Assembly: GCA_017457065.1 (NCBI GenBank)
Contig: JAFTIE010000121.1
Location: forward strand, 1 to 52,685
Length of the DNA stretch: 52,685 bases
From: Lentisphaeria bacterium
GTDB lineage: Bacteria > Verrucomicrobiota > Lentisphaeria > Victivallales > Victivallaceae
Reading direction: 5' to 3'
Below, in pieces: positions 3,208 to 23,030 of the stretch. Numbering within the stretch: the first letter of the stretch is position 1; every line of letters begins with the position of its first letter. Made by a program: the position numbers and the translations under genes. Under the pieces are notes generated by a model. The model was given only the letters and a program-made list of their open reading frames with translations. It was not told where the DNA came from and made no database searches.

Positions 3208-3965
3208 GAATAGATAAACTCCGTGAGATGCCGCATTGGTCGTATTCTGCAATGCAGTGTTATTTAACCTGTCCGCTGAAGTACAAATTCCGTTACATCA
3301 ACAACGCAGAGCCGGAGCGTACCGGCTCCTGCTTCCCTTTTGGACGTGCGTTTCATGCAGCACTTTCAGAGCGTGCCAGAATCGGTAAGGATATGTCGGA
3401 GCGTGAGGTTTGCGACGTCTTTGAAGACTACTTCAAGGCTGAAACCGATGCTGCAGAAAACCTTGTTTACAAGCCCAACGAGGACTACGACAGCCTTTTG
3501 CAGACCGGCTTCAAGATGGTGGAGGTTGCCTGTAAATACTGGCAGGATGACTTTGCAGTTCAGCGAGTGGCTGAAACGTTTTCGGTAACGGTGCCGGGCT
3601 TGAGCAAACCGCTGATTGGAGAGTTTGACTGCGTGGTGACGGACGGACACGACAACTGTATCGTGGACTGGAAGACTGCTTCTGCGAAATGGCCGGTCGG
3701 TAAAGCCGACAAGGATCTGCAGGCAACCGCGTTCAGTTACGCTTTCAAAGAGAAGTACGGAGAAAAGCCGTTGTTCCGATTCGATGTTTTCACCAAAGCG
3801 AAGTCGCCGACCGTCAACAACTATTACACGTTGCGTACAGATGATGAGCTTGATCGATTTGTTTCGCTTGCCAATGGCATCGAAAAGAGCGTCAACAGCG
3901 GGAACTTCTACCCCAATGAAAGCTGCTTCGGCTGTGGCGAGTGTCCTTACCGTGACAGTTGCTAA
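3204..3965 (+). CDS. PD-(D/E)XK nuclease, Cas4/RecB type with Fe-S cysteines
   Basis: A 253-residue protein with the Cas4/RecB-like exonuclease plan. SYSAMQCYLTCPLKYKF near the N-terminus holds the first cysteines and the QxxxY-like helix. FGRAFHAAL supplies the His motif, IGEFDCVVTD the catalytic Asp, and IVDWKTASA the D-x-K motif. The C-terminus has CFGCGECPYRDSC, giving the cluster of three to four cysteines that binds a 4Fe-4S centre in Cas4 and AddB. Such enzymes trim DNA ends. I chose the ATG at 3204 (ATGA overlap with the previous stop, GGAAGG upstream) over an ATG at 3189. No cas1 or cas2 gene and no repeat array is present, so this is not a CRISPR gene but probably a phage-type recombination nuclease. 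Confidence 0.8.
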   Translation: MRIDKLREMPHWSYSAMQCYLTCPLKYKFRYINNAEPERTGSCFPFGRAFHAALSERARIGKDMSEREVCDVFEDYFKAETDAAENLVYKPNEDYDSLLQTGFKMVEVACKYWQDDFAVQRVAETFSVTVPGLSKPLIGEFDCVVTDGHDNCIVDWKTASAKWPVGKADKDLQATAFSYAFKEKYGEKPLFRFDVFTKAKSPTVNNYYTLRTDDELDRFVSLANGIEKSVNSGNFYPNESCFGCGECPYRDSC

Positions 3966-3979
3966 AAGTGTAGGTAACT

Positions 3980-4705
3980 ATGGGACTGATGATGTGCGAT
4001 GGAAAGTTTGTCAGCCGTGATGAGATCGCTCTGGTGCCGACACCCAGCGGTACTGAAAGTTGGAAACCAGTTCCGCATATGGAGGTGATTGACGCCGTAA
4101 CCGATGTGGTCAAGGCGCACAACTGGCAGATTCTGGATGAAAACTTCGGACTTGCCAGAGAGGGGCAAAAGATGTTCGGCGTAATGCGAATCAATAAAAG
4201 CAACAGTTCCGACTGGTCACGATGTATCGGTCTGCGTAACAGCCACGACAAGAGTTTTGCTGTCGGTCTTTCTGCCGGTATCTGTGTCACCGTGTGCAGC
4301 AACCTTGCTTTCGGAGGGACTACCGTCATCAAGCGCCGTCATACCTCACGGATAGAACTGACCGAACTGGTGGACGTGGCAATGAATGAGTTGGAAAATG
4401 AATTTCTGATGTTGGAAACGGTCTGCGAAGATCTCAAAATCATCTATTTGAAAAACGATGATGAAGCTCGCAGCTGTATCGTCAGAGCCGCCGAAATGGG
4501 AGCAATCAACAGTTCCGATATCGTACCGGTTTTTAAAGAGTTCAAGAACCCGCGGCATCCGGAGTTCGCTGAACCGACACGGTATTCGCTGCTCAACGCT
4601 TTTACGGAGACGATCAAAAAGTACACGCCGCTACGGGTTGACCAATCCCACATGGCACTCAACCGTTGTTTCGGACTTGACGGTCACCGTCCTGAACTTT
4701 GGTAA
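3980..4705 (+). CDS. DUF932 (phage/plasmid-like) protein
   Basis: A 241-residue protein of the DUF932 family, which is widespread in phages, plasmids and integrated elements and has no settled function. Recognisable parts are FGLAREGQKMFGVMRI, WSRCIGLRNSHDKSFAVGLSAG, then CVTVCSNLAFGG, and a C-terminal helical half with LRVDQSHMALNRCFGLDG. The size is shorter than the roughly 300-390 residues of many members, so the C-terminal part may be reduced. It starts 14 bp after the nuclease stop with only a weak ribosome site (TAGG), suggesting read-through translation. In many elements DUF932 genes sit beside recombination or anti-restriction genes, in keeping with this context. Confidence 0.75.
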   Translation: MGLMMCDGKFVSRDEIALVPTPSGTESWKPVPHMEVIDAVTDVVKAHNWQILDENFGLAREGQKMFGVMRINKSNSSDWSRCIGLRNSHDKSFAVGLSAGICVTVCSNLAFGGTTVIKRRHTSRIELTELVDVAMNELENEFLMLETVCEDLKIIYLKNDDEARSCIVRAAEMGAINSSDIVPVFKEFKNPRHPEFAEPTRYSLLNAFTETIKKYTPLRVDQSHMALNRCFGLDGHRPELW

Positions 4706-5318: not shown

Positions 5319-5912
5319 ATGTCCGAAAACAAATCTGCTATTATTCTGTCGGGATTGTCTAGTCGCGACCTCTGTAAGCAAAATTCTCCAGAGCTTGCAG
5401 GATACATTTACATTGTTGACAAAGTCAGTCTTTCGGAGTTGACGGAGTGCGAGTGGAGTGCCGCAGTCAATATTGAATTTTTTAAAATGCTACTTGCAGG
5501 CGAGCGACATCCGCATCAAAAAATTTTTGAATTTTTTATTTCGGTAATTAATACAGGTTTTGTGCCCCTTGAATTTCCGAAAGCAGAAAATGCCTTTGTT
5601 GATATTGATTTTATCAACAGGTCAGATAACTTATGGTATAAACTTACCATTACTTGCGTGAAAAGTCAAGATGCTGGCGGTTCTACTTTCTCTCAAGGAT
5701 TGACTTGGCACATAAGCGAATATTTTGGAGAACAGGATGCCGATCCGGAAACTTTTTTTCTCGACTCAACTATTGACGATGCTGTACTTATGGGAAAAGA
5801 AGTTTTGCAATGGAACCGTGCCGCAATTCATTTAACAGAAGTAAAACACCCCTTTGCAAAAAAAATGATTGCTGTTTTTGGACAAAGCGAAAGGATTGTT
5901 GTATGTCCCTGA
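5319..5912 (+). CDS. Hypothetical protein upstream of sigma factor
   Basis: A 197-residue protein I do not recognise. It appears soluble and mixed alpha/beta, with no signal peptide or membrane segment. Notable pieces are IILSGLSSRDLCKQN at the N-terminus and VDIDFINRSDNLWYKLTITC in the middle. A ribosome site AAGGAG lies 10 nt upstream. Its last 10 bp overlap the start of the sigma-factor gene at 5903, so the three genes 5319, 5903 and 6501 form a translationally coupled set. That makes it a candidate anti-sigma, effector or substrate partner of the sigma/kinase pair, by position only. Confidence 0.6.
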   Translation: MSENKSAIILSGLSSRDLCKQNSPELAGYIYIVDKVSLSELTECEWSAAVNIEFFKMLLAGERHPHQKIFEFFISVINTGFVPLEFPKAENAFVDIDFINRSDNLWYKLTITCVKSQDAGGSTFSQGLTWHISEYFGEQDADPETFFLDSTIDDAVLMGKEVLQWNRAAIHLTEVKHPFAKKMIAVFGQSERIVVCP

Positions 5913-6511
5913 AATACCCGACAACTTCTAAAACTCTGTTGGATAAAATCGCTTCCGGCGATGAGATCAGCTGGGATGAGTTTTATCAGAAATACTCCCC
6001 CATCGTCAAAGCGATTGCGTGCTTCAAAGGTTTGAATGAAGTTGATGCCGATGACATTTGCCAACAGGTAATGATGCAGTTTTTCAAACAGAGCAGAACT
6101 TTCAGATTCGATCCGGATATTGCCCGGTTCAGAACTTACTTCGGCAGGATCGTCCGTGGCAGGATCATTGATCACTTCCGCAGGAAAAAAGAAATTCCAG
6201 TCGCTGAATTTGAAGCCGAGCCGATTGATCCTGATACCGAAAAACTTTACATGGATGAATGGCGGAAGATGGTCATTAAGGAGGCTGAACAGGAGTTGAA
6301 ACAGCGGGTGTCTCCGGAAACTTTTCAGGCGTATCAACTTTATGCGGTACAAGGACGTCCGGTGGAAAAAGTCGCCGCGTTTCTGGATTGTTCGACCAAT
6401 CAGGTCTATCAGGCAAAGAAACGCTGTTTCAAAATGATGCGTGAAATCCTGCTGTCGATGAATAAACAGGATTCAGAATTGCAGTTGGAGTTGTCGGAAT
6501 ATGAGTTATAA
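5903..6511 (+). CDS. ECF-like sigma-70 family sigma factor
   Basis: A 202-residue sigma factor with regions 2 and 4 only. Region 2 spans about residues 20-95: FYQKYSPIVKAIA, then DADDICQQVMMQFF, then FDPDIARFRTYFGRIVRGR and IIDHFRRKKE. Region 4 has VSPETFQAYQLYAVQGRP and a recognition helix VAAFLDCSTNQVYQAKKR. It would recruit core RNA polymerase to a dedicated promoter set. The ATG at 5903 has AAGGA 7 nt upstream and falls inside the end of the preceding gene. Its last 11 bp overlap the kinase start at 6501. The sequence style resembles planctomycete and verrucomicrobial ECF groups that pair with Ser/Thr kinases instead of anti-sigma factors. Regulation by phosphorylation is inference. Confidence 0.85.
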   Translation: MSLKYPTTSKTLLDKIASGDEISWDEFYQKYSPIVKAIACFKGLNEVDADDICQQVMMQFFKQSRTFRFDPDIARFRTYFGRIVRGRIIDHFRRKKEIPVAEFEAEPIDPDTEKLYMDEWRKMVIKEAEQELKQRVSPETFQAYQLYAVQGRPVEKVAAFLDCSTNQVYQAKKRCFKMMREILLSMNKQDSELQLELSEYEL

Positions 6512-7973
6512 CGTTGGCGATACAATTTGTAACTGTACCCTTTTGCAAAAGTGCGGCGAAGGGGCTTACGGCGAAGTCTGGCTTGCTCACGATGCTATCG
6601 GAACCCGTGTCGCCATTAAAATTCTCTATAATCGCAACCGTTATTCAGAACGCGAGCTTGCAGGGCTTAAAAATTACAAAGATTGCAATCACCCAAACTT
6701 GCTGAAAATACGCCATGTTGAAATCACTGACAATGCGATTTATTACACCATGGATGCTGCTGATGACCTCAATCACGGCAACGGCGAATATCAGCCCGAT
6801 ACCCTTGCCAACCGTTTGGGAAAGTATGGCAGGCTGGATGGTAAAGAAATTACTGATATGCTCGACGGTTTGCTTTCAGGTCTTGAAGAACTCCACAAAC
6901 ACGGACTGGTTCACCGGGATATCAAGCCTGATAATATTCTGTGGGTAAATGGCAGAGCCATCCTTGCCGATGTGGGGTTGATCGCCTTTGAAGGAGCTGG
7001 TTCTCTGGTGGGAACACCGGGCTTTCTTTCGCCACGGGTGCTTGAGGGGAATCCAGCCGAAGCCAGTGACGACTTTTACGCTCTGGGCAAAGTTATCTAC
7101 TGCGCTTTGACCGGACTTGCAGTTACCGAGTATCCGAGTTTGCCGATAGATGTAACGATCAGTATGGATGCCAATTTGAATAAAGCCCTGCGGGAAAGTT
7201 GTTCGCATCCGATAAAATCGACTGCCGAATTCCGGAAGTTGCTGAATGGCAAAAGCGTTTCCGTTCCGTCTGAACCCAAAATCAGAAATCCATTCCCGAT
7301 AAAAAAACTTGTAATGGTATCGGGAATTGTGGTTCTGATCGGTGCGTTCGTTTATCTTTTTATTCAACAGCAGAAAATGGCTGAAAAACATATCGTGCAA
7401 CCGGTTCCGGTCGATGTCGAAGCAGAAAAAAAATTGACACAACAGCAAAATATCGACCATGATTTTCAAAAAGAACTGCAAAGTAATGTGCAAACCTTTT
7501 TCCGCAAATCCGGTTGGCTTGATAATGGAAAGATGCTGCCTTTCTTGCTGAATTATGAAGTAATGGATGCTTCTTTAATGCGGGAACTGATTACAGGAGG
7601 CAGCGGCAATCCCCGTCTGCAGCCATCCGCCGGAGCATATCGGAAAACGGTTCGGATTTCCACATCATTGGAAATTAAACTTTTGGGTATGCTTCACGGC
7701 GTACACTATCCGGATTTTGATGTTGCGAAGGTTCAGGAGCGGCAGAGTTATTGGAAAAATCGTGCAGATATAAAATTGATGCTGACCACAGACCCGGTTA
7801 TGCAGGCTGTTGCATTGGATGCGGTTATCCGTAACGGGATCAATAAGGTATTGGAACATGGTTCATTCCGTGGCAATGAAGAAGCTGAACTCAAGAATTT
7901 GATTTATATGCGTCATGCTCTGCTTGACCCGGAATGGGGTAAACTGCAGTTTATGTCAAGAAATTTTCATTGA
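6501..7973 (+). CDS. Membrane-anchored Ser/Thr protein kinase
   Basis: A 490-residue protein. The N-terminal kinase domain has the Gly loop GEGAYGEVW (19-27), the VAIK lysine (40), HRDIKPDN (138-145) and an ADVGL metal-binding motif (156-160) with Val in place of the usual Phe of DFG. GTPGFLSP follows in the activation segment. One membrane helix lies at about 270-288, followed by a roughly 200-residue C-terminal domain I cannot name, probably on the other side of the membrane as a sensor. The 11-bp overlap with the sigma-factor gene implies coupled synthesis. Together they look like a signalling pair in which the kinase senses an envelope cue and controls the sigma factor. The catalytic Lys, Asp and HRD residues are present, so it is probably active. 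Confidence 0.9.
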   Translation: MSYNVGDTICNCTLLQKCGEGAYGEVWLAHDAIGTRVAIKILYNRNRYSERELAGLKNYKDCNHPNLLKIRHVEITDNAIYYTMDAADDLNHGNGEYQPDTLANRLGKYGRLDGKEITDMLDGLLSGLEELHKHGLVHRDIKPDNILWVNGRAILADVGLIAFEGAGSLVGTPGFLSPRVLEGNPAEASDDFYALGKVIYCALTGLAVTEYPSLPIDVTISMDANLNKALRESCSHPIKSTAEFRKLLNGKSVSVPSEPKIRNPFPIKKLVMVSGIVVLIGAFVYLFIQQQKMAEKHIVQPVPVDVEAEKKLTQQQNIDHDFQKELQSNVQTFFRKSGWLDNGKMLPFLLNYEVMDASLMRELITGGSGNPRLQPSAGAYRKTVRISTSLEIKLLGMLHGVHYPDFDVAKVQERQSYWKNRADIKLMLTTDPVMQAVALDAVIRNGINKVLEHGSFRGNEEAELKNLIYMRHALLDPEWGKLQFMSRNFH

Positions 7974-8288
7974 ATCGGATTTAATATTTATGAAAATCTC
8001 AACTTCTACTTGAGATTTGCATAAAAAAAGAAAAAAATCACAATTCTGCGACAAATTGCAGAAAAGTTTGCGAATAATAGGGTGAAGAAAGAAATTTCTT
8101 CCATGCAGACAGAGATGCGATTTGATTTTAAAGGATTGTGGTGCTATGTTATTTACCGAACTTAAAAAAGAGGTGAAAAACAAAAACAGTAATCACAAAA
8201 ATTTGAAAATCGAATAATTCGCAGTCTTTCAAGACGGTTACTTCGGGAAACGCCAAAAACACGAGTAAAACTGATTGCTTGAAGGGTG

Positions 8289-8385
8289 CGTCTGTGTGCA
8301 TACACAGACGTACTCTGTTTGCATGGGTTTTACGGGTATTGGCGTACCTCCGAAGTCATGAGAATGGAGTACGTCTTTTTTTGTG
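8289..8385 (+). ncRNA. Candidate structured leader RNA / attenuator with competing pairings
   Basis: The gene-free stretch 7974-8408 (435 bp) is AT-rich at first and then carries this structure. Pairing A joins CGTCTGTGT (8289-8297) to ACACAGACG (8302-8310) with a GCAT loop. Pairing B joins AGACGTACTC (from 8306) perfectly to GAGTACGTCT near 8368-8377, followed by a run of Ts. The two share bases, so only one can form. A third option joins GGCGTAC(C)CTCC near 8340 to the same GGAGTACGTC. This is the layout of an attenuator or riboswitch placed just before the gene at 8409. No known RNA family is recognised. A 23-codon ORF at 8146-8217 is possible but unsupported. Confidence 0.5.
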
Positions 8386-8408: not shown

Positions 8409-8960
8409 ATGAGTATTTGGAAAACTATTGGCGGTGCTGTTGTTGGTGGATTGTTGGGAGGTCCTGCCGGAGCTGTTGCAGGAGCGGTGATTGGTTCTGG
8501 GAAGACAAAGGATGTGCTTAAAAAAACGGGAGAAATTGCTAAAGCGACAGCCAAAGGAGCGGCGAAAATTGCAGGAGAAGCTATTGATCAAGCAAGTCGG
8601 AGTGAACCTGCCGTTCGTGGGGTGGTTGTTTCAGATAATGGAGAATGGGGAATATGCTATCCCAATCATAAGATTTTAACCGTATTAACTGAAAATTACG
8701 GTGACTTGTATCGCGGCGATATTGCGATTATTCCGGATACTGCTTTTTGTTCCCGTAATTATTGTTACTTTGTTAATAAAGAAGGGTTTCGATTCTCTAT
8801 TGATAAAGAAACATTTATGACGGCTGTAGATAAAGTCGGAGAACGTTATGATGGTTTTGGCAGTGAAAAGTTTGTTATGGAATTATGTGAAATAAAAGAT
8901 CCAGTTGAAATACAGAACCGTGAATTCTTCAAACATGCAATATGGATAAACAGAAGTTAA
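8409..8960 (+). CDS. Glycine-zipper protein with C-terminal soluble domain
   Basis: A 183-residue protein of unknown function. Residues about 8-35 are an almost pure Gly/Ala/Val zipper (GGAVVGGLLGGPAGAVAGAV) that could form a membrane-inserted hairpin. A Lys/Ala-rich amphipathic helix follows at 40-65. The C-terminal 110 residues look like a compact beta-rich domain (VRGVVVSDNGEWGICYP, then YRGDIAIIPDTAFCSRN). A ribosome site AGGGAG lies upstream, and the structured leader precedes it. The next gene follows after 15 bp, so this heads an apparent operon running to 12437 or beyond. The zipper plus globular domain layout suggests a membrane-docking subunit. Confidence 0.65.
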   Translation: MSIWKTIGGAVVGGLLGGPAGAVAGAVIGSGKTKDVLKKTGEIAKATAKGAAKIAGEAIDQASRSEPAVRGVVVSDNGEWGICYPNHKILTVLTENYGDLYRGDIAIIPDTAFCSRNYCYFVNKEGFRFSIDKETFMTAVDKVGERYDGFGSEKFVMELCEIKDPVEIQNREFFKHAIWINRS

Positions 8961-8975
8961 AACGAAGTGCTATCT

Positions 8976-10667
8976 ATGAATACTAAAAATAATAAAACCG
9001 CATTGCATGCGACATTAGCTGCAGCCGCAGAAGATACTGTCAATCGTTTCGGCAGTGGAATCAAAGAGCATCTTGTTGCATTGAAGGGAATTGACCGTGA
9101 GATTAGCGTAGACAAACTCGCTGTTGGAAAAACAGTTCTGTTTAATTGGAACGGTAATGATATTCCTGTCGTGATAAAAAATATTGCAGGCAGAAACAAT
9201 ATTCAGGTGGAATTTGCGGGTAACCAACTGCATACTCAATTGGATGTCAAAATCAACGAACTTGAGGGAATTGTCAATAAGCGAAGTTTAGCCCAAATTG
9301 CCCAAAGCAAAGTCAATCCGGAATTTGCTGAACAAAATCTGAAACAGCAGGCTGGCTTTTCCGCTGAAGTCAAAGAAGTTGGCAGGCAAAGAGCTGAAGA
9401 AGCTGTTGCCGGTAAAAATCCCAAAACAGTTCGTACAGATGATCTTCCCGGGCATGTCAATGATCCTTTTTTTGATATAACTTGTGAAGTTGATGCCAAA
9501 GGCAACCCCATTCCCGGAGCCAGCGCGCAAATGAAATTTGTCGGCAGCTCACCTGAGGCTGCTGTGGACAAGATGCTGACAAAGCAATATCAGAAATACC
9601 ATGACAATGATGTAAAGATCATGGTTCCGAAAGATTATTATCCCGGAATGAAAGAGGCTTTGCAGAATAAAATTACTTCTCTGGAAGATCAAATCTCCAC
9701 AATGCGGGCAAGAGGATATTCGCAGGATGCAATCAATGCCAAGGTAAAGCAGCTCGAAAATTGCAAAACTCTTCAGAAAAATTTGCTGGAAAGCAAAGTT
9801 ACCAATGCTGAAGCAATGGAAGCAAGAACCAATCCAACGCTTTCCACGGCAAAGGATATTGCCAAATTGGCTCATCGTGCCGGAGTACAACAGGCTGCGA
9901 TTGGAGCTGCTGTTGGCGGCGGAGTTTCCATTGTAAGAAACGCGGTTGCTTTATACAAAGGCGATAAACGAAGTATTGAAGCTCTTAAAGACGTAGCAGT
10001 AGATACAGCAGGAGCCGCCGGAGTAAGTTATGTTACCGGTTTCGGCGGAGCTGCAATAAAAGGTACTATGCAAAACTCGTCATCTGCGATGTTAAGAGGC
10101 ATTTCCAAAACAAACCTTCCGGCTTATATTGCTACATCCACTCTGGAAATCGGTAAAACAATGCATTCCTATTTTTCCGGGAAAATAGATGGCACAGAAT
10201 GCCTTGAAGAATTGGGCGAAAAGGGATATGGCATGGTAACAAGTGCTATGTTTGCAGCTGTTGGGCAAGTTGTGATTCCCATTCCCATACTTGGAGCAAT
10301 GGCTGGCAGTATGCTGGGATATGCTTTGAGTTCAGCTTCTTACCATATTCTTCTTGACAGCATGAAAGAGGCAAAACTTGCCAGAGCTGAACGGATCCGG
10401 ATTGAAAAAGAGTGTGCAGAAGCAGTAAAAATGCTTCAGGAATACCGCAAAGAACTGGAAAAATTCATTGATGATTATTTGAAAGAGGCTGAAGATACTT
10501 TCAATGAAGTTTTTGCAGAGATCAAAGATAAACTTGCAATCGGCGATGCCGACGGCTACATAAGATCTGTAAATAAAATTACAGAATTTTGCGGTAAGAA
10601 TCCCATTGCAAGTAATCGTAAGGATTTTGATCTGCTTATGCAAAACGATGCTCCCATAAAATTTTAA
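8976..10667 (+). CDS. Large helical protein with two hydrophobic hairpins (possible membrane-acting effector)
   Basis: A 563-residue protein, not assigned to a family. The N-terminal 60 residues include a small beta segment (VGKTVLFNWNGNDIPVVI). A long helical region with coiled-coil character follows (ALQNKITSLEDQISTMRARG). Two glycine/alanine-rich hydrophobic stretches come next, near residues 305-350 (AAIGAAVGGGVSIVRNAVAL) and 420-455 (IPIPILGAMAGSMLGYALSS). The C-terminal coiled coil is highly charged. There is no signal peptide. This arrangement of soluble helices around buried hydrophobic hairpins resembles pore-forming or membrane-remodelling proteins, by analogy only. The ATG at 8976 is preferred over a GTG at 8967; neither has a strong ribosome site, which suggests coupling to the upstream gene. 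Confidence 0.65.
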   Translation: MNTKNNKTALHATLAAAAEDTVNRFGSGIKEHLVALKGIDREISVDKLAVGKTVLFNWNGNDIPVVIKNIAGRNNIQVEFAGNQLHTQLDVKINELEGIVNKRSLAQIAQSKVNPEFAEQNLKQQAGFSAEVKEVGRQRAEEAVAGKNPKTVRTDDLPGHVNDPFFDITCEVDAKGNPIPGASAQMKFVGSSPEAAVDKMLTKQYQKYHDNDVKIMVPKDYYPGMKEALQNKITSLEDQISTMRARGYSQDAINAKVKQLENCKTLQKNLLESKVTNAEAMEARTNPTLSTAKDIAKLAHRAGVQQAAIGAAVGGGVSIVRNAVALYKGDKRSIEALKDVAVDTAGAAGVSYVTGFGGAAIKGTMQNSSSAMLRGISKTNLPAYIATSTLEIGKTMHSYFSGKIDGTECLEELGEKGYGMVTSAMFAAVGQVVIPIPILGAMAGSMLGYALSSASYHILLDSMKEAKLARAERIRIEKECAEAVKMLQEYRKELEKFIDDYLKEAEDTFNEVFAEIKDKLAIGDADGYIRSVNKITEFCGKNPIASNRKDFDLLMQNDAPIKF

Positions 10668-10691
10668 CCCAAAAATGAAAGGAATAAATAA

Positions 10692-11405
10692 ATGGGAAAA
10701 ATGTCAACAACTGATCGTGCCATGCTTAAGGTAGCTTATTTACTTTCAAGCATAAATGGCGAAATCGGCAAATTGGAGTGCGAAGCATTCAAAGCTTTAT
10801 GTTTTAACAATGCTTCTGCAATTCCAGGAACAGCAGAAGTTAATGCTTTTCTGGAAGAAGTAGTGACTGAAGCTGAAAAATTTCAGAAACTGAAGAAATT
10901 TTATAATGCGGAAGAACAAATTCTTGCATTTATCTCAAAAGTCGGTGCCGATTGTGAAAAGTTGAAAGCAGATCCCGTTGTCAGCAGAAAAGCTTTTGCG
11001 GTTTGGATCGGCTTGTGTATGGCAGATGGTAAATATTCCGAAGTTGAACGGCAGTTGATAAAGACTCTTCAGCAGATATTTATCAGAAAAATTGATTTCA
11101 GCAATGTATCATCTGAATTGCGTATCGGAGCACTTATGGGGGCTTTTATGCCCGGCGTGGGAAGTTTGATTACCGCAGGAAAAATCGGGAAAGCTATCGT
11201 TTCCGGCGAATACAAAGCCCAGGAATCTGAACAGGTGATTTCGGATGAGTTTCTGAAACAACTTGAGGATGATTGCAAGATGCTTAATGATTTAAAAATG
11301 CAAATCGATTCAACTGCTGATGCTGTCCAAAAAGCAAGTTTGCAGAATTCTTTCAACTATATTGAAGACAGCCTCAAAGAACTTATCAAAAATGGTTTGA
11401 ATTAA
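10692..11405 (+). CDS. TerB-like protein
   Basis: A 237-residue helical protein. Its first 130 residues show the TerB (tellurite-resistance B) pattern: LLSSINGEIGKLECEAFKAL, then AFAVWIGLCMADGKYSEVERQLI, where the A-D-G-x-x-S-x-x-E signature is characteristic. TerB-type domains are acidic helical bundles found in stress and phage-related membrane complexes. After residue 140 a short Gly-rich hydrophobic stretch (IGALMGAFMPGVGSLITAG) could touch membrane, followed by a C-terminal helix pair. A ribosome site AAAGGA lies upstream. It sits 24 bp after the 563-residue protein and 24 bp before the 335-residue one, so all are probably co-expressed. Confidence 0.65.
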   Translation: MGKMSTTDRAMLKVAYLLSSINGEIGKLECEAFKALCFNNASAIPGTAEVNAFLEEVVTEAEKFQKLKKFYNAEEQILAFISKVGADCEKLKADPVVSRKAFAVWIGLCMADGKYSEVERQLIKTLQQIFIRKIDFSNVSSELRIGALMGAFMPGVGSLITAGKIGKAIVSGEYKAQESEQVISDEFLKQLEDDCKMLNDLKMQIDSTADAVQKASLQNSFNYIEDSLKELIKNGLN

Positions 11406-11429
11406 CATATCAAAAAAGGAGATTTTATT

Positions 11430-12437
11430 ATGCCGTTACCTCTTATTCCCATTATACTCGGTGCGATTGCTGTGACTACCGGCGGCGTCGGAGTTGCCAA
11501 AGGAGTCAAAGCTGTTATGGATAATAACGAAGCAAATGACATCAATGAAAGTGCACAGAATATTATTGACAAAGCCCAAGATGAATTGAAGACTGCCAGA
11601 GATAATACATCAAAAGCATTGACTCAACTTGGTAATAAAAAAATTGATATTTGCGATAAACACCTCGCTCATTTTATTGCCAGCTTTGAAAAATTGAAAA
11701 ATGTTGAACTGGAAACTTCCATCGGTCTGGAAGAGCTGGCTAAATTCAAGATCGATAAGCAATCCATTACTGACTTGAAGAAAGTTACTTTGCTTGCCAC
11801 ATCCCTTGCTTCCGGAACTGCCGGAGGTGCAGTAGCCGGAGCCGCAGTTGCATTCGGAGCTTATGGTGCAGCCGGAGCATTGGCAACTGCCTCAACGGGA
11901 ACGGCGATTGCCACCTTGAGTGGAGCCGCCGCAACTAATGCTACTCTGGCATTTTTTGGCGGCGGAGCATTAGCCGCCGGAGGTTTGGGGGTCGCCGGAG
12001 GAACGATGGTTCTCGGTGGCTTAGTTGCTGGACCGGCGCTGGCAGTCCTCGGATTTGTTATGGGAGCAAAAGCTAGCAGTAATCTGGATAATGCCCGTTC
12101 AAATCTTGCAACTGCCAAAAAGGTAAAAGCTGAATTAGCAGTTCTGACAACTGCTTGCAATGGAATCAAGAAACGGTCTGATCTCTTTACTAGAACGCTG
12201 ATCAAACTGGAATCAATTCTCAATATGCAGCTGGCTAAATTTGAGTACATTCTCGCCACCGAAGGTATAGATTATTCAAAATTCAGCGATTCATCAAAAA
12301 ATCTTGTGGCGATGCTTCTGGGAACTGTTCAGGCAGTCAAAGCATTGCTCGATACACCTTTGCTGAATGAGGCGGGTGCTCTTACCGATGAATCAGAAAA
12401 GGTTGTCAATACCGTAAAAGGTCTTTTGGAAGCCTGA
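11430..12437 (+). CDS. Coiled-coil / glycine-zipper membrane protein
   Basis: A 335-residue protein of unknown function. It opens with a hydrophobic segment (LPLIPIILGAIAVTTGGVGVAKG), then a heptad-like coiled coil (residues 35-110). A remarkable stretch of about 100 residues (135-230) made largely of Gly, Ala and Val comes next, long enough for three to four packed glycine-zipper helices. A second coiled coil closes the chain (ARSNLATAKKVKAELAVL). This two-sided plan resembles proteins encoded beside bacterial dynamin-like GTPases, but no GTPase gene is visible here. The ribosome site AAAGGAG is strong. Its stop overlaps the next start (TGATG). Confidence 0.65.
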   Translation: MPLPLIPIILGAIAVTTGGVGVAKGVKAVMDNNEANDINESAQNIIDKAQDELKTARDNTSKALTQLGNKKIDICDKHLAHFIASFEKLKNVELETSIGLEELAKFKIDKQSITDLKKVTLLATSLASGTAGGAVAGAAVAFGAYGAAGALATASTGTAIATLSGAAATNATLAFFGGGALAAGGLGVAGGTMVLGGLVAGPALAVLGFVMGAKASSNLDNARSNLATAKKVKAELAVLTTACNGIKKRSDLFTRTLIKLESILNMQLAKFEYILATEGIDYSKFSDSSKNLVAMLLGTVQAVKALLDTPLLNEAGALTDESEKVVNTVKGLLEA

Positions 12438-21332: not shown

Positions 21333-22652
21333 TCAATTTTTGAGGATTTTTTCGACCGCAAGCAACTCGGCTGACGGTTCCGATATGGAGGCGATATATT
21401 CCAGTGCCCGTTTGATTTTGGCTACCGGAGTTGATTCGGCAGAACCGGAAATCGCTTCGACGGCAGCACGCTGGGCATCTTCTCCAACGTGGGTATAGAA
21501 GGAATCTATAATTTCGCTATTGGCGCCGAGGATCGAGGTGACCACCGCCTTCGGCACACCAGCTTCGGCGCAAAAACTGGCGAAGGAGTGCCGCAAACTG
21601 TGGAAACCCAGAACAGTGGTTTTCTTTTTCCGTCCCTCTACTGCAACGGAAGTTTCCACGCCTATCCAGCGGATAACCCGCATCGTGTCGATGTTGACCA
21701 GTCCATCGCCAATACACTTACCTCTTTTATCAGTTTGTTTGTAACGTGCCGCAACTTTGGGATTAACATAGGCATCTACCTTACGTTCTTGAGCTTCAAG
21801 CAGAACCTGATAAAGCAGCGGAGCAATGGGAATAGAGACTTCTTTGCCTGTTTTAAATTGCTTTACAAAAATCTTATGATGTTCCACATCCACATTCTGC
21901 CATTGCAACAGTACACAATCTTTGAGTCTCTGCCCAGTAAACATACCGATATAGAAAACCACCTTGAGTTCTGTTTTATTAAGAATGCGGTATTGGGGAT
22001 CATCCAAAACAGCACGAATTTGTTCTTCCTGCTCTCTGGTAAAAGCAATACGCCGGACAGCGGTATCCTGCTCTTCCCGTTCTTTGCGCAGCAAAACTTT
22101 TAAAGCAAAAGGATTACCATCTTCGCGGTACTCCTGCAACGTGGTAAAGATTTTTCGCAAACGGACGATTTTCCGATTGTGAGTGGAAACGGAAATTTGA
22201 GTTGTTCGCAGATAATCAGCAAATTTTATAACGTGCGATTCGCTGATTTGGGCGAACTGTGTAATTTTTCTGTCAAGAAACCGTAGAAATTCCGCCAGTG
22301 TAGCTTCATAAGAAAGCTGTTCTCTGACCGTTGCGGGCAAGGCTCGCTGGGGATGTTCAGAATACGTTTTCCAAATTTCAGATACCGGCAATGATTTGGT
22401 TTGAGCCGCCAGTTTACGGGCAACTTTAACGTGAGAGGCAATTACTTCCAGATTAGTAGCCTGAACGGTAGGAAGCAATTCTTTAGCTTTGCGTATTGCT
22501 TCTTCCCTGTTGGCTGTTTTCAGACTTACACATTTGCGTTCACCCCTGACCTGATAACGGAAATAGTAGTTGCCGCCCTTACTGGTCTGGTAAACAGTAC
22601 CCTTGTCTAATTTGATGCGGTGAAGATCTGAATCCATTTTGCGCTTTCCCAT
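21333..22652 (-). CDS. Tyrosine recombinase (integrase)
   Basis: A 439-residue site-specific recombinase. The core-binding (SAM-like) domain lies at about 90-190 (PVSEIWKTYSEH onward). The catalytic domain follows with the first Arg in MFTGQRLKDCVLLQWQNVD, the His/Arg pair in LGFHSLRHSFASFCAEAG and the Tyr nucleophile in DSFYTHVGED. All four key residues are present, so it is probably active. It would cut at attB in the 3' end of tRNA-Tyr, which lies 108 bp upstream of its start. The ATG at 22652 has GGGAG 7 nt upstream. It sits at the right end of the element beside the attachment region, as expected. A terminator follows its stop. Confidence 0.93.
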   Translation of the reverse strand: MGKRKMDSDLHRIKLDKGTVYQTSKGGNYYFRYQVRGERKCVSLKTANREEAIRKAKELLPTVQATNLEVIASHVKVARKLAAQTKSLPVSEIWKTYSEHPQRALPATVREQLSYEATLAEFLRFLDRKITQFAQISESHVIKFADYLRTTQISVSTHNRKIVRLRKIFTTLQEYREDGNPFALKVLLRKEREEQDTAVRRIAFTREQEEQIRAVLDDPQYRILNKTELKVVFYIGMFTGQRLKDCVLLQWQNVDVEHHKIFVKQFKTGKEVSIPIAPLLYQVLLEAQERKVDAYVNPKVAARYKQTDKRGKCIGDGLVNIDTMRVIRWIGVETSVAVEGRKKKTTVLGFHSLRHSFASFCAEAGVPKAVVTSILGANSEIIDSFYTHVGEDAQRAAVEAISGSAESTPVAKIKRALEYIASISEPSAELLAVEKILKN

Positions 22653-22759: not shown

Positions 22760-22844
22760 TGGTGGTGGGAGATGGATTCGAACCATCGAAAGCTGTGCTA
22801 GCAGATTTACAGTCTGCCCCCTTTGGCCGCTCGGGAATCCCACC
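22760..22844 (-). tRNA. tRNA-Tyr (GTA)
   Basis: An 85-nt tRNA with a long variable arm. The acceptor arms GGTGGGA (5') and TCCCACC (3') pair, the anticodon loop CTGTAAA gives GTA, the T-arm reads GGTTCGAATCC, and the 3' CCA is encoded. It is the third and last gene of the tRNA operon. Its 3' end is the likely attachment site for the integrase. Confidence 0.95.
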
Positions 22845-22852
22845 GATCGTAA

Positions 22853-22926
22853 TGGAGCGGGTAAGGGGGGTCGAACCCCTATAACCAGCTTGGAAGGCTG
22901 GTGCACAGCCGTTATGCCATACCCGC
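22853..22926 (-). tRNA. tRNA-Gly (TCC)
   Basis: A 74-nt tRNA. The 5' arm GCGGGTA pairs with the 3' arm TACCCGC, the anticodon loop CTTCCAA gives TCC (reads GGA), the T-loop is GTTCGAC, and CCA is encoded. It lies 8 bp upstream of tRNA-Tyr. Confidence 0.95.
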
Positions 22927-22944
22927 AGTTTTTTACAGAAAATT

Positions 22945-23030
22945 TGGTGCCGTCGGGGGGAGTTGAACCCCCACTCCGGTGAAAGAACTTGGACCTGAAC
23001 CAAGCGCGTCTGCCATTCCGCCACGACGGC
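22945..23030 (-). tRNA. tRNA-Leu (CAG)
   Basis: An 86-nt tRNA with a long variable arm. The acceptor arms GCCGTCG and CGACGGC pair, the anticodon loop TTCAGGT gives CAG (reads CTG), the T-loop is GTTCAAC, and CCA is encoded. It is the first gene of the operon, 45 bp downstream of a near-consensus promoter. Confidence 0.95.

Follow-up and report, generated by a model that had tools for sequence, protein, structure and literature searches.

A likely new class of cis-acting RNA switch with terminator and antiterminator folds in one bacterial phylum

In a 52,685-nt stretch of DNA from a Lentisphaeria bacterium (hereafter the window), we identified a structured RNA of ~145 nt, located ~90 nt downstream of a sigma70-like promoter, with hundreds of relatives across one bacterial phylum. 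According to our comparative analyses, it most likely represents a previously undescribed type of RNA switch that acts in cis, in the manner of a transcriptional attenuator or riboswitch. Its two mutually exclusive folds share one strand, and the RNA, probably transcribed from a sigma70-type promoter of its own, would precede the downstream operon as its leader and act on it in cis as a terminator/antiterminator switch. RNA classes in which both folds covary, copies reach ~20 per genome and the distribution extends over much of a phylum are rare.

Competing folds in the window and its homologues

A sequence-only reading of the window had described a 9-bp hairpin with a 4-nt loop. This hairpin is present letter for letter, with arms CGTCTGTGT (8289–8297) and ACACAGACG (8302–8310) and loop GCAT (8298–8301), as the tip of a larger structure: the minimum-energy fold of the region comprises helices P1, P2 and P3 (from 8240) and a 15-bp tip hairpin with arms A and B, longer than first described and including GGGTGCGTCTGTGT and ACACAGACGTACTC. 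The folding of the region exceeded that of shuffled sequences (z −6.5), none of 200 shuffles being equally good. The same reading had proposed a perfect 10-bp competing helix before a T-run, and AGACGTACTC (8306–8315) is indeed perfectly complementary to GAGTACGTCT (8367–8376), followed by a T7 run (8376–8382) that ends 26 nt before the ATG at 8409; the helix is real, but the terminator hairpin is in fact much longer than 10 bp. The larger P1–P3 fold, the longer terminator hairpin and a conserved upstream promoter all go beyond the first description.

The structured domain spanned by our two covariance models, R1 and R2 (8236–8382, plus strand, like all features of the RNA; score of the window copy 150.9 bits, E 5e-37), is organized in three segments. 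Segment 1 contains the 5' strands of P1 (8240–8247), P2 (8250–8256) and P3 (8265–8272), with an AA linker (8248–8249) between the first two, and arm A (8284–8297). Segment 2 begins with arm B (8302–8317) and continues with the 3' strands of P3 (8326–8333), P2 (8339–8345) and P1 (8349–8356), with GGT (8335–8337) and ACC (8346–8348) flanking the P2 strand. Segment 3 is strand C (8366–8376), the 3' strand of the terminator stem. Arm B is thus shared, its partner being A in the antiterminator (fold 1) or C in the terminator (fold 2), and it is sequestered when segment 1 pairs with segment 2.

Fold 1 was evaluated in 97 distinct, structurally aligned members, in a model alignment fitted to the fold-1 structure, B:C being included in neither covariance model. 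In this alignment, 94.3% of the cells are paired (P1 97.7%, P2 99.8%, P3 97.3%, A:B 91.4%), double changes occur at every pair of each helix (37 of 37), as in pair 8250–8345, which covaries AU/CG/UA, and the AA linker is near-invariant (98–99% conserved). With the reservation that shuffle-based scores are inflated by relatedness among the sequences, the covariation score of fold 1 was 0.747, versus 0.226 in shuffles and at most 0.114 in slid alignments; moreover, in a sequence-only alignment of 37 members, where P1–P3, B:C and GGY:RCC were scored jointly, 93.9% of cells were paired and 23 of 38 pairs displayed double changes, a level reached by none of 500 shuffles. The A:B duplex is also more stable with its own partner (−16.9 kcal/mol) than with swapped partners (−11.2 kcal/mol).

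The terminator hairpin of fold 2 (8306–8376; −34.0 kcal/mol when folded alone) comprises ~25 bp and abuts the T7 run, or U-tract (8376–8382). Runs of at least four T are found in 97 of 99 members, and an 8-mer with at least six T in 98 of 99, versus 10% of random stretches. In a MAFFT sequence-only alignment of 37 homologues, the B:C helix is paired in 98.0% and 7 of its 12 pairs carry double changes; in the 97 distinct members, whose alignment was made without B:C, the corresponding values are 89.5% and 10 of 12, and sliding this helix there by one to three columns leaves 37–70% paired. Further, B:C reappears in an independent consensus obtained with MAFFT and RNAalifold, where 9 of 11 pairs covary, and the mean duplex energy is −20.5 kcal/mol for own partners versus −13.4 kcal/mol (sd 0.34) when partners are swapped among members.

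When segments 2 and 3 were folded alone in 94 members, the B:C hairpin was formed in 93 (mean z −5.1), with a median of 18 pairs joining both ends. A stem extension, which in the window corresponds to TTTGCATG with CATGAGAA, was found in 91 of the 94, and 92 have a GGY...RCC hairpin at the apex, closed in the window by GGT:ACC; the GGY:RCC pairs are 94–95% paired, the third covarying UA 50/CG 33. Since 39% of simple shuffles reach seven end-to-end pairs, the weight rests on energy, covariation and constancy, and not on the bare presence of a hairpin. The AA, GG and CC positions are near-invariant, and as GG and CC are paired in the terminator fold, few unpaired invariants are left.

Two other pairings were considered and set aside. 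A local terminator formed by C with GTACCTC (B') displayed similar energies for own and swapped partners (−15.3 and −14.2 kcal/mol) and was weak in the G043 family, which indicates that the conserved stem is B:C. An H-type pseudoknot of GGY:RCC with P2 was not favored, since segments 2 and 3 alone show the terminator-state apical hairpin instead; a pseudoknot alongside P1–P3 is possible.

As judged from the aligned homologues, both folds are under strong selection. With both conserved and B common to them, A and C are rivals for B and, in a wider sense, segments 1 and 3 for segment 2. The sequence-only reading had made its claim depend on covariation of both competing stems in homologues, and in both stems it was found.

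Promoter, leader and spread

The sigma70-like promoter (8122–8150, plus strand) consists of a −35 box TTGATT (8122–8127), a 17-nt spacer and a −10 box TATGTT (8145–8150), and is conserved in the alignment of homologues, where TTGAyTTTT, 17 nt and TGnGCTATGTT are followed by a leader that is rich in A and contains a purine motif, and then by the RNA and the T run; past the T run, the sequence differs between loci. Promoter scores of at least 10 of 12 were obtained in 30 of 97 members versus 3 in shuffles, mostly 60–120 nt upstream of P1. Among close homologues, a conserved element, CCATGCAnACAGAG (8101–8114, plus strand), precedes the −35 box and is possibly an operator or other regulator site.

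Between promoter and RNA lies the purine-rich, Shine-Dalgarno-like motif GAGGTGA (8170–8176, plus strand). Matches of at least 5 nt are present in 71% of members versus 32% of shuffles, at a steady place ~67 nt before P1. This enrichment and constancy would fit ribosome-dependent attenuation, in which a ribosome that translates a leader peptide, stalls on it or sits at the motif covers segment 1 and favors the terminator. Against this, a start codon follows the motif in only 12 of 69 cases, most such frames span 1–11 codons, no conserved peptide was found among them, and the one 23-codon frame considered in the window was discarded, its own ATG (8146) falling within the −10 box; we regard this alternative as very improbable, and the preferred reading continues to be a cis-acting switch between the two folds.

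Regarding its distribution, a DNA search with a 309-bp query gave matches in 40 of 149 related genomes, the named matching records being Lentisphaeria and Victivallis metagenome-assembled genomes, mostly from gut samples, and one contig labelled Clostridia. Covariance model R1 detected the RNA in 71 of the 149 relatives; in the class it did so in 69 of 198 genomes, and in the phylum in 56 of 388. The second model, R2, built from 94 members, was positive in 136 of the 387 genomes sampled from the phylum, which we infer to be Verrucomicrobiota in the GTDB sense. In 50 kb of E. coli sequence no model match was found, and in 651 kb of loci the matches were confined to the expected sites. The contig labelled Clostridia (L050) gave a strong match (124 bits) and is probably misbinned; otherwise, it would be a sign of wider spread. 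A viral contig (L068) was rejected as a member, as it matched a 17-nt pattern only and neither R1 nor R2.

Copy numbers ranged from 1 to 20 per genome in 12 chosen genomes, with more candidates scored, and four genomes of one genus contained 18–20 copies. In one genome (G078, L189–L197) the A:B tip has a much longer arm, giving an RNA of ~210 nt, and in another locus (L029) two RNAs of different subtypes (3567–3717 and 4293–4439) are arranged in tandem at a distance of ~720 bp, both immediately preceding a gene. Among the six copies of a closed genome (G043, L105–L110), the B and C strands are nearly identical and P1 and P3 differ.

Multiple copies in some genomes, the identity of certain copies that have common following genes (L190–L192 of G078) and the location of the window copy in an apparent integrated element would be compatible with a mobile DNA repeat, namely a MITE- or REP-like palindrome that folds by chance. 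However, helix sequences vary between copies while pairing is kept, copies are placed directionally before genes, and covariation is observed in both folds, so that we give this explanation almost no weight in comparison with a conserved RNA switch.

Downstream genes and genomic neighborhood

A same-strand gene start with a ribosome-binding site was found within 250 nt downstream of the RNA in 84 of 99 loci (median 55 nt; 49 within 60 nt), the remaining 15 having no clear start by the rule used, some for want of flanking sequence. In the mirror-image upstream control, 21 gene starts lay within 250 nt and none within 60 nt. In the window, the first downstream gene (8409–8960, plus strand), which has the Shine-Dalgarno sequence GGGAG and starts 26 nt after the U-tract, encodes a 183-aa protein with a glycine-rich N-terminus and no Pfam family.

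These short distances bear on the possibility of a small RNA that acts in trans and has a promoter and terminator of its own, for which the neighboring gene would be incidental. Although a promoter and a strong terminator hairpin are present, the gaps between RNA and gene leave little room for a second promoter. In addition, the location of the RNA across the 99 loci is strongly tied to the downstream gene, a plain small RNA would have no need for the second complete, terminator-destroying fold that is conserved here, and up to 20 divergent copies per genome preserve pairing and not sequence. A trans-acting function is accordingly improbable, and a leader function of the RNA is preferred.

The rest of the likely operon in the window (8967–12437, plus strand) includes relatives of PDC-M09A and PDC-M09B, which in PADLOC form a two-gene candidate phage-defence system: a PDC-M09B-like gene (8976–10667; E 4.1e-18) and a PDC-M09A-like gene (11430–12437; E 7.2e-30), between which lies a gene for a 237-aa protein with no family assigned (10692–11405), all on the plus strand. 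Across loci, the first downstream genes are diverse, including zinc ribbons (10 of 80), Sel1, dynamin-like and other proteins; tRNA_anti-like was matched by four downstream proteins, and PADLOC matches among downstream genes comprised JukA, LeoA, DrmD-like and candidate systems. In a genome with ~20 copies, the RNA precedes genes for PEP-CTERM exported proteins, an ISP-type restriction-modification enzyme, a cytosine methylase, a BspA-like LRR protein and a glycosyltransferase, and in the closed genome G043 the six copies precede, at +69 to +77, six related genes, which encode paralogous ~171-aa secreted proteins. The common theme, as we provisionally see it, is one of accessory, surface and defence-like genes, although upstream kinases would confound any estimate of PADLOC enrichment; no pathway common to the downstream genes that would name a ligand was found.

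Upstream of the promoter, Pfam identified in the window a sigma-70 region 2 (ECF-like) protein and a Ser/Thr kinase with a transmembrane segment (5810–7973, plus strand), and Ser/Thr kinases account for 21 of 93 upstream proteins, recurring upstream of the RNA in roughly one locus in four. This arrangement suggests a kinase-sigma-RNA-effector module. Further along the window, a tyrosine-recombinase-like integrase gene (21333–22652) adjoins three tRNA genes (22763–23030), and DNA-clamp-like and helicase-like genes are also found within positions 1–22700, a stretch whose content suggests an integrated mobile element containing the RNA.

The occurrence of the same RNA before many unrelated accessory, surface and defence-like operons would also fit general control of elongation, that is, a protein-responsive or processive-antitermination leader (put RNA or LoaP-type) enabling polymerase to pass local and later terminators in long accessory operons, and the near-invariant AA, GGY and RCC could form a protein site. 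Conversely, the local terminator fold, superfluous for a purely processive device, is kept in nearly every member, and no partner protein was found, the upstream kinase being limited to the quarter of loci mentioned. We consider such a leader rather unlikely, and the local terminator/antiterminator switch is the reading developed below.

Proposed switch and known RNA systems

The conservation of both folds and of the U-tract, the close same-strand genes, the promoter, the wide spread in the phylum and the absence from Rfam are results of the analysis; that the hairpin terminates transcription, that the fold is chosen while the RNA is being transcribed and that a signal makes the choice is what we infer. 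Transcription from the sigma70-type promoter would place the RNA at the 5' end of the operon transcript as a leader, in which segment 2 would be contested by segments 1 and 3. Pairing of segments 1 and 2 would prevent terminator formation, allowing polymerase to read into the operon, whereas pairing of segments 2 and 3 would form the ~25-bp hairpin before the U-tract and stop transcription ~26 nt before the gene. Mean energies over the whole RNA were −56.9 kcal/mol for fold 1 and −41.6 kcal/mol for the nested fold 2, although static values of this kind predict cotranscriptional folding only poorly. As these energies favor the antiterminator, read-through is expected by default, and with fold 1 ~15 kcal/mol more stable, fold 2 would need kinetic help or a trigger. 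Thus, a signal acting on segment 1, by destabilising or capturing it, or one favoring invasion by C, may promote termination, this direction being uncertain.

The sequence-only reading had suggested the logic of attenuation or of a ligand-sensing RNA. Since covariation, U-tract (26 nt before the gene in the window) and placement hold across homologues and loci, attenuation logic is well supported at the level of sequence. As for the trigger, a small ligand or second messenger, as in a riboswitch, has about an even chance, an RNA-binding protein or elongation factor is distinctly less probable, and other signals are less probable still. Under a broader reading, to which we assign slightly less than even chances, the RNA would be a new signalling class, widespread in one phylum, whose input is a common signal inside the cell (e.g., a second messenger, or a cue of infection or stress) and whose complete refolding into a terminator turns accessory, cell-surface and defence operons, several to ~20 in each genome, on or off. 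If the attenuation reading holds, this RNA would broadly control the accessory, surface and defence genes of Verrucomicrobiota, gut Lentisphaeria among them. The consensus, models and locus list open a direct hunt for the ligand or factor.

The sequence-only reading had recognised no known class, and our searches agree: with Rfam 15, neither the window RNA nor 13 further loci gave a match above a family's gathering threshold, and at lax E-values chance matches only were obtained. Acido-Lenti-1 (RF01687), a candidate RNA from Acidobacteria and Lentisphaerae, is the one Lentisphaerae motif listed in a large RNA survey (PMC2864571), which classes it as probably not cis-regulatory; it is included in Rfam and did not match our RNA. 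Verrucomicrobia and Lentisphaerae are not mentioned in the main text of another such survey (PMC11109978). An earlier description outside Rfam is possible, the literature check having covered openly accessible published papers.

The RNA displays the features of an attenuator, namely exclusive folds that share a strand, a hairpin followed by a U-tract, and a position 5' of a same-strand gene. The trp leader, the classical attenuator, shares with it the logic of 1:2 versus 2:3 pairing and the U-tract; unlike the trp leader, the RNA described here has no conserved leader peptide, and its segment 1:2 fold is much more elaborate. The put and EAR elements are processive antitermination RNAs, with which it has in common the use of one leader type before diverse long accessory or surface operons. 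This likeness extends to systems using LoaP, a processive antitermination factor (PMC12691694); in contrast to all of these, a local U-tract terminator is built into our RNA, which has no Rfam match.

Transcriptional riboswitches with a terminator/antiterminator platform, such as the Bacillus subtilis yxjA purine riboswitch (PMC9756952) and the crcB and pfl motifs (PMC2864571), likewise consist of a conserved structured leader RNA overlapping a terminator; in them, too, strands compete and a U-tract lies shortly before the gene. Unlike in these, B and the 3' strands of the domain are reused here in a near-complete refolding, both folds covary, and the genes that follow have no common metabolic pathway. 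The HMP-PP (thiS) riboswitch, a terminator-embedded aptamer (PMC6478431), resembles our RNA in that sensing domain and terminator have sequence in common; however, thiS is tied to thiamin genes, whereas unrelated genes follow the RNA described here, whose domain is larger (~145 nt) and includes an antiterminator as a fold of its own.
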